NCBI GenBank assembly: GCA_018830485.1 | Contig: JAHJRQ010000013.1 | Coordinates: 1 to 64,000, forward strand | DNA length: 64,000 bases | Reading direction: 5' to 3' | DNA from: Pseudomonadota bacterium | GTDB taxonomy: Bacteria > Desulfobacterota > Desulfobulbia > Desulfobulbales > Desulfurivibrionaceae | Shown here: piece after piece, positions 5,972-27,829 of the stretch | How positions within the stretch are numbered: position 1 is the stretch's first letter | How the letters are laid out: each line of letters begins with the position of its first letter | Notes under the pieces: generated by a model | What the model saw: only the letters and a program-made list of their open reading frames with translations | Database searches by the model: none | Told to the model about the DNA's origin: nothing | Position numbers and translations under genes: made by a program

Positions 5972-5986
5972 GACAAAACTCCTTTA

Positions 5987-6039
5987 CACCCAGAGGGTAT
6001 AAGTTTCGTACGAGCAGGCAAGCTGCTCAACTCAGCTTT
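5987..6039. repeat. Dispersed copy of the 54-bp GAGCAG-palindrome repeat
   Basis: This stretch matches the tandem repeat at 24972-25187 nearly base for base: an ACCC-aga-GGGT mini-hairpin, TATAAGTTTCG, then GAGCAG-GCAAG-CTGCTC and AACTCAGCTTT. It begins just three bases upstream of the rpmB Shine-Dalgarno. Finding one isolated copy and one tandem array 19 kb apart suggests an intergenic repeat family in this genome. Confidence 0.8.
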
Positions 6040-14612: not shown

Positions 14613-17012
14613 ATGGACACTAATAAACAGCCCCCCTCTTCTTCCGCCGTTCAGGAAGCGGTTTTCACCGTCAATGAAAGCTGGCAGATCACTTCTTTCA
14701 ACCAGGCAGCGGAGAAACTCCTGGGCCTCTCTGCCCAAGATATCATCGGCAAGAGCTGTCAGGACGTTTTCAGCGGCTCGGACAGGTTCGTTTCCATGTG
14801 CAAACTGTACGGACCATTGACTGCGGGCCGCGCCATGCACGGGCTGCGGGTCGTGCTGCCCAAGCCGGACAGCACCGAATCCGTCATTCTGCTGGTCACA
14901 GCGATCCCCGTTCCCGACAAAAACGGCAAACTCTCCGGCGCAATCATTACTGTCCGCGACGCCAACGATCCGGGTCAGATCTATCCCTTGGTCATGGAGA
15001 GCATCGCAGACGGCGTCTTCACCGTGGACAAGCGATTCCGCATCACCTCCTTCAACAAGGCGGCGGAAAACATCACCGGCTGGACCGCCAAGGAAGTCGT
15101 CGGGGTGTCCTGCAATATCATTTTCAAGTCCAACATCTGCGGCGCCGACTGCATCCTGGCCCAGAGCGTCAATGAAGGCAAATCCATCGTCAATCGTTCC
15201 ATCTACATCAAAGGCAAGAATGGCCGGACCATCCCCATCAGCATCAGCGCCTCGCCGCTCATCGACCCGGAAGGCCAGGTCATCGGCGGGGTGGAAACCT
15301 TTCGGGACATTACTTCCAGCCTGCAACAGAATCTCATTTTAGACAGCATTGCCGACGGCGTCTTCACCGTGGACCGGAACTGGCATCTGACCTCCTTCAA
15401 CAAGGCGGCGGAAGGCATCACCGGCTGGAGCAAGGATGAGGTTCTCGGCAAGCCCTGCAGCGCCATTTTCCATTCGAGCATCTGCGGAGAGACCTGCATT
15501 CTCGCCCAGAGCGTGGAAAGCGGTAAGCCCATCGGCAACCGTTCCATTTTCATCAAGGGCAAAGACGGGGAGACCATCCCGATCAGCATCAGCGCCGCCC
15601 CCCTTACCGATCCGGACGGCGATGTCATCGGCGGGGTGGAAACCTTCCGCGACCTGACCTCGGTCATGACCAAGGATCTCGTCCTGGAAAGCATCGCCGA
15701 CGGGGTGTTCACCGTGAACCGCAGTTGGAAGATCACCTCCTTCAACCGGGCGGCCGAACTGATTACGGGCTGGAAACGGCAGGATGCCATCGGCAAGTCG
15801 TGCAGCGACGTGTTCCACTCCAGCATCTGCGGCGAAAACTGCGCCATTGCCCAAAGCCTATACAGCGGCAAGCCCGTGGCCAACCGCTCCATCTTTGTCA
15901 AGAACATCGACGGCAAGCAGATCCCCTTAAGCATCAGCGCCGCGCCGCTTCTTGACCACGAAGGCAACGTCATCGGCGGAGTTGAAACCTTCCGGGATCT
16001 GAGCGTGGTCACGGAACTGCGCAAACAGCTTTCCCGGCGCTACACCTTCGGCGAGATTCTCAGCAAAAGCGCCTCCATGCAGCGGATTTTCAGCATCCTG
16101 CCCGAGATCTCCCACAGCGAAAGCAATGTTCTGGTGCTCGGCGAATCGGGCACCGGTAAAGAGCTGGTGGCCCGCGCCATCCACACCTCGAGCCGGCGCA
16201 ACAAAGGGCCGTTCATGGCGGTCAACTGCGGGGCACTGCCGGAAACCCTGCTGGAGTCCGAGCTTTTCGGTTACAAGGCCGGCGCCTTCACCGATGCCAA
16301 ACACGACCGGCCAGGTCGCTTTGCCAGCGCCGAAAAGGGCACCCTGTTCCTCGATGAAATCGGCGATATCCCCGCCTCCCTCCAGGTCAAACTCCTGCGG
16401 GTTCTCCAGGAAAAGGTGTACGAACCCCTTGGCTCCAACAAGCCGGTCAAGGCCGACGTGCGGATCATCGCCGCCACCAATCGCAACCTGCAGCAGCTTG
16501 TGCAGGAAGGACTCTTCCGGGAAGACCTCTTCTATCGCCTGAACGTGGTGAAGATCCTCCTCCCCCCCCTGCGGGAGCGCATGGAAGACGTGCCCATGCT
16601 CGCCGAGCATTTCATCAAACAATTCAGCAATCAGCAGGGCAAGGATATCGTCGGGATTTCCGATGAAGCCCTGGGCATTCTCATGCGCTACGGCTTCCCA
16701 GGCAATATCCGTGAGCTGGAAAACATCATCGAGTATTCCTTCATCCTTTGCCATGGCGGGTTCATCCGGCCGGAACACCTGCCCGAGCCCTTTGCCCCCA
16801 AGGCCCAGGAAAGCCCGCAATCAGGAGCAATTCCCCTCCACAAGCCGCTTCCCCTTGAGGAAATCGAAAAACAGGCGATTTTCCAATCCCTGGAGCGGAA
16901 CCACTGGCGACGGATGAACACCTGCCGGGAGTTGGGCATCTCCAAGGACACCCTGCGCCGGAAGATAGAACGGTATGGGCTAAAGAACCCATTCGGCGAT
17001 GATCTCGACTAA
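14613..17012 (+). CDS. Sigma54-dependent transcriptional activator with four PAS domains
   Basis: The 799-residue protein has four PAS domains (about 1-120, 125-240, 240-355, 355-465), an AAA+ domain (about 480-720) and a Fis-type helix-turn-helix (about 755-795). Walker A is GESGTGKE (about 509-516) and Walker B is LFLDEIGD. The sigma54-contact loop reads GAFTDA (about 557-562) instead of GAFTGA. PAS domains 2-4 are near-identical with a period of about 115 residues, and each carries C-x9-C-x3-C (for example SC, then ICGADC or ICGETC). There is no receiver domain, so the signal is probably sensed directly by the PAS domains in the cytoplasm. Its position between the NrfD/FeS operons and the two nearby sigma54 promoters suggest it controls them. 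Confidence 0.92.
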
Positions 17013-23080: not shown

Positions 23081-24967
23081 ATGCCTTGCCCCCTGACAGA
23101 CGATACCCTAGCCCGGATCATGGCCATGGCGGCCGGCGAGGACTGCGTTTTTCTTGAAACCGGCAGGGTAACCTCCGAGGAATCGCGCTCCTATTTTTTC
23201 CACAACCCGGTAACCCATCTTGCCTGTTACCCCCACGACGATCCTGCCCGGTTTTTCCGGCAGGCCGAGGATTTTCTCGCGGAGGGGTTGTATCTGGCCG
23301 GCTGGCTTGGATATGAATTCGGGTATCTGCTCGAACCATCCCTGGCAAAACACATCCTCCTCGATCCGCACAAGCCACTGGCCAGACTGGACGTGTTCCG
23401 CGCCCCCCTGATCTTCGACCACCTCTCGGGAGAGCCGCTCGGCGCCCCTTGGCCGAATCCGCCTCAAACCGGGACCTCCACCGGCTACCGCATCACCAAT
23501 CTGCGTCCCAGCCTCGGGAAAGCCGATTACACCGCAGCCCTTGCCAGGATCAAGGAATATATCGAAAGCGGCGACACCTACCAGGTAAACTTCACCCTGA
23601 AGCTGCTCTTTGACTTCGATGGTTCACCGGAAGCGCTCTATCAGGCATTGCGGCGCAACCAGAGCGTCTCCTTCGGCGCCTATCTCCGCTCCGGCGATGA
23701 ACGCATTCTTTCCTTTTCTCCGGAACTGTTTTTCAAGAGGAGCGGCGAACAATGCCTGGTCCGGCCCATGAAGGGCACCATCCGCCGCGGCCCGTATCAG
23801 GCGGAAGACGCGCGGTTGATGACCTTTTTGCAGACCGATGCAAAAAACCGCAGCGAAAACGTGATGATCGTCGATCTGCTGCGCAACGACCTGGGCCGCA
23901 TCTGCACCCCGGGAACGGTGCAGACTCGCTCCCTCTTCGACATCGAAACCTACGAGACCCTGCACCAGATGACCTCCACCATCACCGGCCATCTGCCCAG
24001 GGAAACACGGATCGAATCCCTGTTCAAGGCCCTGTTCCCATGCGGCTCGGTCACCGGCGCCCCCAAGATCCGGACCATGGAAATCATCCGCGCGCTGGAA
24101 AACGGGGTGCGCGGCGTCTACACCGGGGCTATCGGCTTCATAGCCCCCACGGGCGAGGCAACCTTCAACGTGCCGATCCGCACCATCGAACTCAACGGCA
24201 GCTCTGGCCAAATGGGCATCGGCTCCGGGATCATCCACGATTCCGACCCTGAGCAGGAGTGGCGGGAATGCCTGCTCAAAGGACGTTTCCTGAGCGATCC
24301 GGCCCCCCCCTTCAGCCTGATTGAAACCCTGCTCTGGCAGCCGGGCTCCGGCTACTGGCTCCTAAGGGAACATCTGGAACGGCTGGCCGCTTCCGCCGCC
24401 TATTTCCGCTATCCCGCAAACCCGGCGGAGTTTCTGGCCCGACTCGAAAGGCTGGCCCTGGATTTTGCCGCCTCGCCCATGCGGGTGCGGCTGACCCTGA
24501 CACGAAGCGGGCGGATGGTACTCGAGGCCGCCCCCTGCTCGGCCCCTGCCTCAATTACCTGGCCGATGCCGCGGACTGCCCGCGCTGAATTGCCGAAAGT
24601 GACCTTCTCGGCCGAGGCCACGGATCCCAACGCACCATGGCTTTTTCACAAAACCACTCGGAGGGAGCTGTACGACAGCGAGCGGCAACGGGCCGTGGCC
24701 GAAGGAATGTACGAGGTGCTTTTCACCAACACCCGGGGAGAGGTGACCGAGGGAAGCATCACCTCCATCTTTATCCTGCACGGGGAAACCCTGCTTACCC
24801 CAGCCATGGAATGCGGACTTCTGCCCGGAGTTTTCCGGAGATATCTGCTGGAGGACGCCCCCCTCCCGGTGCGGGAAGCCATCCTGACCCGCCGGGATCT
24901 TGAACACGCCGATGCCCTTTTCGTGGGCAACTCGGTGCGCGGCCTGGTCCAGGTCCGGCTCGACTGA
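23081..24967 (+). CDS. pabB: Fused aminodeoxychorismate synthase component I and 4-amino-4-deoxychorismate lyase
   Basis: The 628-residue fusion makes p-aminobenzoate for folate. Residues 1 to about 405 are PabB, with the catalytic lysine motif RPMKGT (not the RPIAGT of anthranilate synthase), PCGSVTGAPK and IGSGIIHDSDPEQEW. Residues from about 410 to 628 are a PabC-like PLP enzyme with EVTEGSITSIF and VGNSVRGLVQV. The ATG at 23081 is the first usable start and has no good Shine-Dalgarno. The PabA glutaminase is not in the window. The 3' end abuts the 54-bp tandem repeats. Confidence 0.9.
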   Translation: MPCPLTDDTLARIMAMAAGEDCVFLETGRVTSEESRSYFFHNPVTHLACYPHDDPARFFRQAEDFLAEGLYLAGWLGYEFGYLLEPSLAKHILLDPHKPLARLDVFRAPLIFDHLSGEPLGAPWPNPPQTGTSTGYRITNLRPSLGKADYTAALARIKEYIESGDTYQVNFTLKLLFDFDGSPEALYQALRRNQSVSFGAYLRSGDERILSFSPELFFKRSGEQCLVRPMKGTIRRGPYQAEDARLMTFLQTDAKNRSENVMIVDLLRNDLGRICTPGTVQTRSLFDIETYETLHQMTSTITGHLPRETRIESLFKALFPCGSVTGAPKIRTMEIIRALENGVRGVYTGAIGFIAPTGEATFNVPIRTIELNGSSGQMGIGSGIIHDSDPEQEWRECLLKGRFLSDPAPPFSLIETLLWQPGSGYWLLREHLERLAASAAYFRYPANPAEFLARLERLALDFAASPMRVRLTLTRSGRMVLEAAPCSAPASITWPMPRTARAELPKVTFSAEATDPNAPWLFHKTTRRELYDSERQRAVAEGMYEVLFTNTRGEVTEGSITSIFILHGETLLTPAMECGLLPGVFRRYLLEDAPLPVREAILTRRDLEHADALFVGNSVRGLVQVRLD

Positions 24968-24971
24968 ATTA

Positions 24972-25187
24972 TACCCACAGGGCATGCGTTTTCTTTGAGC
25001 AGGCAAGCTGCTCAACTCAGCTTTTCACCCTGCGGGTATAAGTTTCGTTTGAGCAGGCAAGCTGCTCAACTCAGCTTTTCACCCTTCGGGTATAAGTTTC
25101 GTTTGAGCAGGCAAGCTGCTCAACTCAGCTTTTCACCCTTCGGGTATAAGTTTCGTTTGAGCAGGCAAGCTGCTCAACTCAGCTTTA
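24972..25187. repeat. Tandem array of four 54-bp palindromic repeats
   Basis: One degenerate unit (24972-25025) and three nearly identical ones (25026-25079, 25080-25133, 25134-25187) lie head to tail without spacers. Each unit has a CACCC-ttc-GGGT mini-hairpin, TATAAGTTTCG, then TTGAGCAG-GCAAG-CTGCTCAA and CTCAGCTTTT. The last unit contains the TTA that is the stop codon of the minus-strand CBS gene. A fifth copy lies at 5987-6039. Confidence 0.92.
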
Positions 25188-25637
25188 CCCCCTGGCCAGG
25201 GTCCGGATAATGTCCGACTTTCCGACCACCCCGACCAGAGCGCCGTTCTTGAGCACCGGCAGGGTATGGACCTTTTTCTCGGCCATGATGGTGGCGATTT
25301 CGTCCAGCGGGGTGTCCTCGCGAATGGTCACGGGTTCCCGGGAGCAGATATCCCCTACCGTGGCGCCGGTCATTTTGTTAATCTCCTTTTCCACCGTTTT
25401 GGCGCGGTCCAAAAAGATGACCGAGTCCAAAATGGAGATGGCGGTGGGGATGTGAAACCTCTTGGTCTGATCCACCAGATCGCTTTCCGTCACCACGCCG
25501 ATCAGCAGCCCGTCCTCGTCGACCACCGGCGCCCCGTTGATGCGGTGCGCCCAGAGAACGCCCGCCAGTTTTTCCACCGGCAGATCCGCCTTTACCGAAA
25601 CAACCTTCTTCGCCATGATCTCCTTGGCTATCAGCAT
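25185..25637 (-). CDS. CBS-pair domain protein
   Basis: A 150-residue protein made almost wholly of two CBS motifs (about 5-62, ending VVTESDLV, and 95-148, ending VVGKSDIIRTLARG). Stand-alone CBS pairs usually sense adenosine nucleotides and regulate a partner that cannot be named from sequence. Its stop codon lies inside the last 54-bp repeat. It is 68 bases downstream of nnr on the same strand and is possibly co-transcribed. Confidence 0.85.
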   Translation of the reverse strand: MLIAKEIMAKKVVSVKADLPVEKLAGVLWAHRINGAPVVDEDGLLIGVVTESDLVDQTKRFHIPTAISILDSVIFLDRAKTVEKEINKMTGATVGDICSREPVTIREDTPLDEIATIMAEKKVHTLPVLKNGALVGVVGKSDIIRTLARG

Positions 25638-27753: not shown

Positions 27754-27829
27754 GCCCTCGTAGCTCAGGGGATAGAGCAACCGCCTCCTAAGCGGTAGGT
27801 CGTACGTTCAAGTCGTACCGAGGGCACCA
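27754..27829 (+). tRNA. tRNA-Arg(CCT)
   Basis: A 76-base cloverleaf: acceptor GCCCTCG with CGAGGGC, D-arm GCTCAGGGGATAGAGC, anticodon stem ACCGC/GCGGT with loop CTCCTAA (anticodon CCT, reading AGG), T-arm CGTAC-GTTCAAGTC-GTACG-like, and encoded CCA. The 3' end is the insertion point of the genomic island. Confidence 0.97.
27816..27829 (+). other. Candidate left attachment site (attL)
   Basis: TACCGAGGGCACCA at the tRNA 3' end has a near copy, TACCGAGCACCA, at 43785-43796 (two bases missing). Upstream, TTCAA also matches on both sides. The imperfect match leaves the exact core uncertain. Confidence 0.45.

Follow-up and report, generated by a model that had tools for sequence, protein, structure and literature searches.

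What is the 54-bp palindromic unit that stands four times, head to tail, between a pabB/pabC fusion gene and a CBS-domain protein gene in a bacterium of the Desulfurivibrionaceae, and how did it come to be there? The window, by which we mean the whole 64,000-nt stretch of DNA analysed (contig JAHJRQ010000013.1, positions 1 to 64,000), holds a fifth copy beside rpmB, and a first-pass annotation had proposed a REP-like family with possible effects on mRNA.

We report a comparative analysis of this unit in the window, in the genome to which the window belongs and in related and more distant genomes. The unit is among the smallest mobile DNA elements in bacteria, having 54 bases and no gene, and occurs in bacteria of the sulfur cycle and in methane-eating bacteria. 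To our knowledge, clearly moving elements of less than 100 nt without a known enzyme are rare. The exact insertion site, the many pairs of empty and filled sites in close relatives, the carriers in two phyla and the unit-free genomes, which serve as natural controls, make the spread of such tiny repeats directly testable. Furthermore, the fit of the unit to stop codons and to the reading frame presents a clean case of near-harmless selfish DNA that adds peptides to proteins.

The array, the rpmB copy and the anatomy of the unit

The array at 24971-25186 is confirmed as four head-to-tail units on the forward strand, each of exactly 54 bp (TRF period 54, 96% matches). Unit 1 (24971-25024) has a degenerate 5' half (ATACCCACAGGGCATGCGTTTTC...), seen also in the relative G007; unit 2 (25025-25078), found by the tandem repeat scan and by a covariance model, has T as its first base; unit 3 (25079-25132; TRF) is followed by unit 4 (25133-25186), which ends in ...CAGCTTT. 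The flanking genes are convergent, the pabB/pabC fusion lying at 23081-24967 on the forward strand (PF00425 and PF01063) and the CBS-domain protein gene at 25185-25637 on the reverse strand (Pfam PF00571, E 1.4e-28), and the TAA stop of the latter is the insertion site. To the left of the array stands the TT of the ancestral target ATT^A (24969-24970, forward strand), which in the empty relative G006 reads TGA-ATTA-CCC; to the right, the antisense TAA of the CBS gene (25187-25185, minus strand) consists of the final TT of unit 4 together with A 25187. The repeat had been said to supply this stop codon, and two bases of it do come from the last unit; yet since empty relatives already carry TTA there, the insertion restored an existing stop and did not create one.

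The fifth copy, also confirmed, is a single unit at 5986-6039 (forward strand), inserted at CTCCTTT^A directly upstream of, and adjoining, the ribosome-binding site of rpmB (ribosomal protein L28; 5777-5971, reverse strand; PF00830, E 9.5e-24), whose AAAGGAG is intact. A 25-nt core with up to three mismatches gave five matches in the window against 0.00 expected from 100 shuffles, and a covariance model run on the window placed three units at E < 1e-18 and all other matches at E >= 0.15, with no new places. The Rfam search returned no match for the unit; its sole match in the window is a tRNA gene at 27754-27826. Elsewhere in the window, at 14991-16002, lie three tandem copies, imperfect (74% matches), of a 345-bp sequence; they resemble repeated protein domains.

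The unit is best described as a 52-nt body with a 2-nt match to the target, N-CACCC-NNN-GGGTATAAGTTTCGTTTGAGCAGRCAAGCTGCTCAACTCAGC-TTT. The consensus of 225 units reads N-Y-A-CC-C-NNN-GGG-Y-ATAAGTTTCGTTTGAGCAG-RCAAG-CTGCTCAACTCAGC-TTT, in which the conservation of the core is overstated since the units were gathered with core and stem patterns. The two hairpins described earlier both fold on both strands, though they fare differently by covariation. Among 176 distinct units the second scores 1278 paired cells against a shuffle maximum of 1266, beating all 500 shuffles, with double compensatory changes in its stem GAGCAG/CTGCTC, whereas the first is weak (743 paired cells, equal to the shuffle maximum of 743); covariation is slight or absent in the first hairpin and in the outer pairs AAG/CTT. 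Units are nearly always complete: the left half stands at its usual distance in 143 of 152 right halves and is missing in the other nine. T occupies the two positions ahead of the unit in 159 and 167 of 177 sites, and A follows the unit in 176; this A and the TTT belonged to one collecting pattern, but not to the two patterns used for the count in the window's genome.

Two variants were noted. In a Methylobacter subtype (L169, L190, L217 and L233) AAGTAGGGTTTGAGCGG stands instead of AAGTTTCGTTTGAGCAG and happens to contain GTAG. At L108 (in G009), L113 (in G013), L260 and L273 CACCCTGAAGGGCATAAAATCCGG takes the place of the second hairpin's first arm; it looks as though another unit had entered the first one and lost its end.

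Spread across genomes and empty sites

The window's genome (2.89 Mb in 26 contigs) carries about 20 copies. One search pattern matched at 21 places, of which at least one is a chance match, and another at 19; the reversed control gave none, and model R1 gave 23; beyond the window there are further arrays of three and of two units at the same 54-bp spacing. Model R1 found the unit in 27 of 58 genomes, its counts in copy-rich genomes being lower bounds (about 100 candidates were scored). With a 42-nt pattern allowing up to two mismatches the unit occurs in 44 of 257 genomes of the order, against none for the reversed pattern; nine of these hold at least 30 copies (105, 86, 85, 84, 73, 64, 60, 32 and 30), and the remaining 213 genomes of the order have none. 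The matches listed for the exact pattern include named Desulfobulbales and, within the Gammaproteobacteria, Methylobacter, a Methylococcales MAG, tubeworm symbionts and symbionts of another invertebrate. By taxonomy the carriers belong to two phyla, Thermodesulfobacteriota and Pseudomonadota. All 20 named genomes examined, which were picked since they matched, carry the unit, the highest count being 169, for Ca. Methylobacter oryzae KRF1; a Methylococcales MAG has 54 copies and two symbionts have 10-12. Of 33 distinct arrays, 26 have two units, six have three and one has four. The first-pass annotation is thereby upheld in its view that the palindromic units form a dispersed family, found at the starts and ends of genes, and the possibility that only the copies in the window exist, with no spread in relatives, is clearly contradicted.

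One 4.3-kb IMG/VR contig holds a copy (L412:3715-3768) at the TAA stop of a phage gene. Its neighbours, a capsid protein (PF03864, E 4.4e-42), a Gp36-like adaptor and a tail sheath match, form a Mu-like structural cluster. A shorter pattern brought no second viral contig, and at 15 other places where a 17-base half pattern matched the rest of the unit does not follow; this one case suggests that carriage by phages is possible. A blastn search of the unit against plasmid and phage records gave no match, and a limited literature collection, searched by the sequence of the unit or for MITE with Desulfobulbaceae, yielded no paper on a matching repeat.

Comparison of orthologous sites shows that the 54-bp unit moves, by evidence that is comparative throughout. 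At all 11 loci compared, at least one relative has an empty site, and the inserted piece is exactly 54 bp. The pabB-CBS locus, readable in 15 of 17 genomes of the genus, shows how copy number varies among relatives: four units in the window's genome, two in G007, one each in G011, G003 and G014, a degenerate one in G015, the nested variant in two (G009 and G013) and no unit in seven genomes, two of which, G006 and G008, are clean empty sites; filled and empty sites differ by 54 bp. The rpmB site is filled only in the window's genome and in G007. The 14 other readable relatives all lack the unit and read ...CTCCTTTAACAAACC... or close variants of it (one CTTTC), G016 being unreadable.

Nine of the other 13 loci of the window's genome were searched with joined flanks in four relatives (L001, L003, L011 and L028 were left out), and each of the nine is empty in at least one of them. 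The joint falls after TT at eight of these loci and after AT at the HypF site; the base that follows is mostly A, with C in both relatives at Ddl and G in two of the four at the U32 peptidase. Insertion thus follows (Y)TT (once AT), usually precedes A and has a single orientation relative to the target. The empty site is usually TT^A where the inserted unit begins with G, and the first base therefore belongs to the element.

TTA is TAA on the opposite strand, and an insertion at TT^A leaves T followed by AA, so that an antisense TAA stop is rebuilt, as at the CBS gene. When the element was removed in silico, 39 of 153 singlet sites proved to be an antisense TAA ending an open reading frame (ORF) of at least 100 codons, against 375 of 8890 YTTA sites at the same loci; relative to sites without such an ORF the figures are 39:80 and 375:3548. 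These ORFs were called mechanically and include some chance ones, and the enrichment mixes target preference with selection. The unit is often found at gene ends without apparent harm.

The suggestion that the length of 54, a multiple of three, keeps one frame open proved correct: in the antisense frame that ends a codon at the junction, the 18 codons read KAELSSLPAQTKLIPxGx with no stop. Insertions inside genes can therefore be tolerated. In the window's genome a peptidase U32, HypF and a nucleotide-sugar dehydratase each hold one unit in frame, and Ddl has three close to its start, which make a 54-residue insert; the HypF site is filled also in G007 and G016, the Ddl site also in G007. At 30 antisense open-frame sites the frame reads on for at least 40 codons past the element in ten, ends soon after it in 17 and ends within the unit in three.

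How the unit may move

The unit, inserting after (Y)TT and usually before A, is in our view very probably a 54-nt mobile element of DNA that is non-autonomous, mainly selfish and of little harm. An enzyme acting in trans would recognise one or both hairpins and join the ends to a YTT^A target, the unit probably travelling as single-stranded DNA. Because the CTTT end of each unit and the following A recreate the target, further insertions (or unequal exchange) would give exact head-to-tail 54-bp arrays. Insertions into TTA would rebuild an antisense TAA stop and those in the open antisense frame would be tolerated inside genes, which argues for a mainly selfish element with little harm. Any effect on mRNA would be secondary. 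Each strand of the four-unit array folds strongly (z -6.85 and -6.58; no shuffle does as well), which is inherent in tandem palindromes, and a scan of the array for terminator patterns found no match.

The flanks of the unit bear on its mover. Among 200 singlets with readable flanks, the dinucleotides to the left and right match in 154 (TT/TT 130, AT/AT 22, AG/AG 1, CT/CT 1); the largest non-matching group is TT/AT, with 13, and AT/TT has none. These counts follow extra sampling of units ending in CTV, so that sites of the AT type are enriched by the search pattern, and the Fisher P of about 1e-18 for the TT/AT square is optimistic, as some sites are orthologous. The matching ends suggest a 2-nt duplication or a matched 2-nt core. 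GC skew showed no strand bias (55 of 126 positive, P 0.18), no longer autonomous form, whether with far-apart left and right halves or with an internal gene, was found in 1.66 Mb of DNA, and likeness to an attC site was considered and dropped, since the order of the arms is reversed. No gene family recurs beside the copies, except for the repeat's own ORF and one broad unnamed cluster.

It is possible that a Y1 HUH transposase of the RAYT or IS200/IS605 type is the mover, acting on a REP-like or IS-end-like hairpin as single-stranded DNA while the AAG near the hairpin foot guides the CTT of the target and of the right end; we hold this reading tentatively. It agrees with the hairpin, the lack of terminal inverted repeats, the fixed orientation at a T-rich target and insertion next to the unit's own end, and a guide just 5' of the hairpin foot is described for HUH elements in PMC6006769. 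Of 528 cells, 505 retain the AAG-CTT pairing, but shuffles give the same (505.0 expected). Y1 genes occur in 52 of 58 relatives, and their subfamilies do not track the copy number of the unit. Simple HUH ends would, moreover, predict independent left and right dinucleotides, which is not what is seen. A linked REP-associated transposase, one of the proposals of the first-pass annotation, was sought and none was found: no unit lies near the 30 best Y1 loci, and two of 20 further loci from copy-bearing genomes have one, in G033 (about 120 bp upstream of the gene) and G048 (about 900 bp away), one of the two genes belonging to another repeat family. The Y1/RAYT gene of G033 (L353, G033:C22, 1764-2459) is preceded by two GGGGTCAGATT repeats (1681-1722) of an unrelated REP-like family. 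RAYT cluster A (E < 1e-80) is present in three of the nine genomes with at least 30 copies, and 16 of its 28 carriers lack the unit; linkage to RAYTs, or co-occurrence with a RAYT subfamily, was accordingly rejected as a pointer to the mover.

Just as possible, and held as tentatively as the Y1 reading, is movement by a recombinase that works through a matched 2-nt core or, unlike IS200/IS605, duplicates 2 nt of the target. It draws on the dinucleotide counts given above and on the AT class, which has no internal sequence mark save a weak one at position 13. Strict duplication is at odds with the 13 TT/AT singlets and with four arrays that have TT at the left and AT at the right, and the orthology of some sites and the enrichment of AT-type ones weaken the count.

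A regulatory or chromosome-organising site of the host, kept by selection, is very improbable: the near-invariant core over two phyla, the copies at gene ends and at one ribosome-binding site and the sites common to several species would speak for it, but the distribution is patchy, with 213 of 257 genomes of the order unit-free, orthologous sites are empty, copies are found within coding sequence and on a phage contig, and a terminator signature is lacking. Copying through RNA, by SINE-like or group II intron-like reverse transcription, seems to us very unlikely, since 5'-truncated copies, typical of target-primed copying, are rare (the nine of 152 above) and no gene family recurs beside the copies, despite the good folding of both array strands (z about -6.7) and an ORF near one copy that we take, by its motif, to be reverse-transcriptase-like.

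Within the selfish, mobile reading that we prefer, we put forward with some reserve that the unit represents a minimal mobile family (52-nt body) spanning phyla and having its own insertion mode, in which a hairpin unit with a matched 2-nt core would be joined at YTT^AW by an enzyme not yet linked to such repeats. One antisense frame would rebuild TAA and another stay open, and phages may carry the unit between hosts.

Comparison with known repeat families

The label REP-like holds loosely. Like REP, BIME and REPIN sequences, the unit is short, palindromic, dispersed and non-autonomous; its copies number in the tens to hundreds and lie mostly at the ends of genes, with some inside them. REPs are marked by a GTAG at one of their ends and are often found on the flanks of RAYT genes (PMC3733652); the consensus of the 225 units has no GTAG or GTGG foot (GTTTCGTTTGAGC on one strand, CTGAGTTGAGC on the other), GTAG appearing only in a minor Methylobacter variant, AAGTAGGGTTTGAGC, and none of the Y1 loci read has a RAYT flanked by its own copies of the unit (0 of the 30 best; 2 of 20 more with a unit). 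REPINs are inverted pairs of REPs (PMC3116915), whereas the 33 arrays of the unit are all head-to-tail at 54-nt spacing. PMC6006769 describes REPs as specific to a species and some HUH subclasses as having atypical hairpins at their flanks; the core of the unit is common to two phyla.

The CGTC repeats, which include the Rickettsia palindromic elements (RPEs), have no dedicated transposase (PMC3733652), and RPEs insert in frame (PMC10969869). Here too no dedicated transposase was found, and in-frame insertions (U32 peptidase, HypF, Ddl, dehydratase) add a conserved peptide. The unit differs from the CGTC repeats in having CGTT beside the stem and no CGTC tag, and from RPEs in its length of 54 nt rather than about 150 bp, its exact TT^A site, its tandem arrays and its hosts.

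With the ends of IS200/IS605 elements the unit shares a hairpin near the right end, a T-rich target and the lack of terminal inverted repeats, but no internal gene or longer form was found in 1.66 Mb, and the 2-nt match between left and right is not expected for IS200/IS605. For a MITE of a DDE transposase one would look for a target duplication of fixed length, and here left and right agree over 2 nt in 154 of 200 readable singlets, TT/AT (13) being the largest group of exceptions; the ends NCACCC... and ...CAGCTTT are not inverted copies of one another and form no terminal inverted repeats.

The small dispersed repeats (SDRs) of Nostoc are very small mobile repeats with no known enzyme, shorter than the 54-nt unit and confined to a group of cyanobacteria. 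They resemble the unit in tiny size and in the want of a known enzyme and differ in being shorter. PMC3116915 mentions them. On the evidence here, the unit appears to work like elements of the REP and RPE type and yet to be a member of neither the GTAG nor the CGTC superfamily; loosely, it may be called REP-like, RPE-like or SDR-like.
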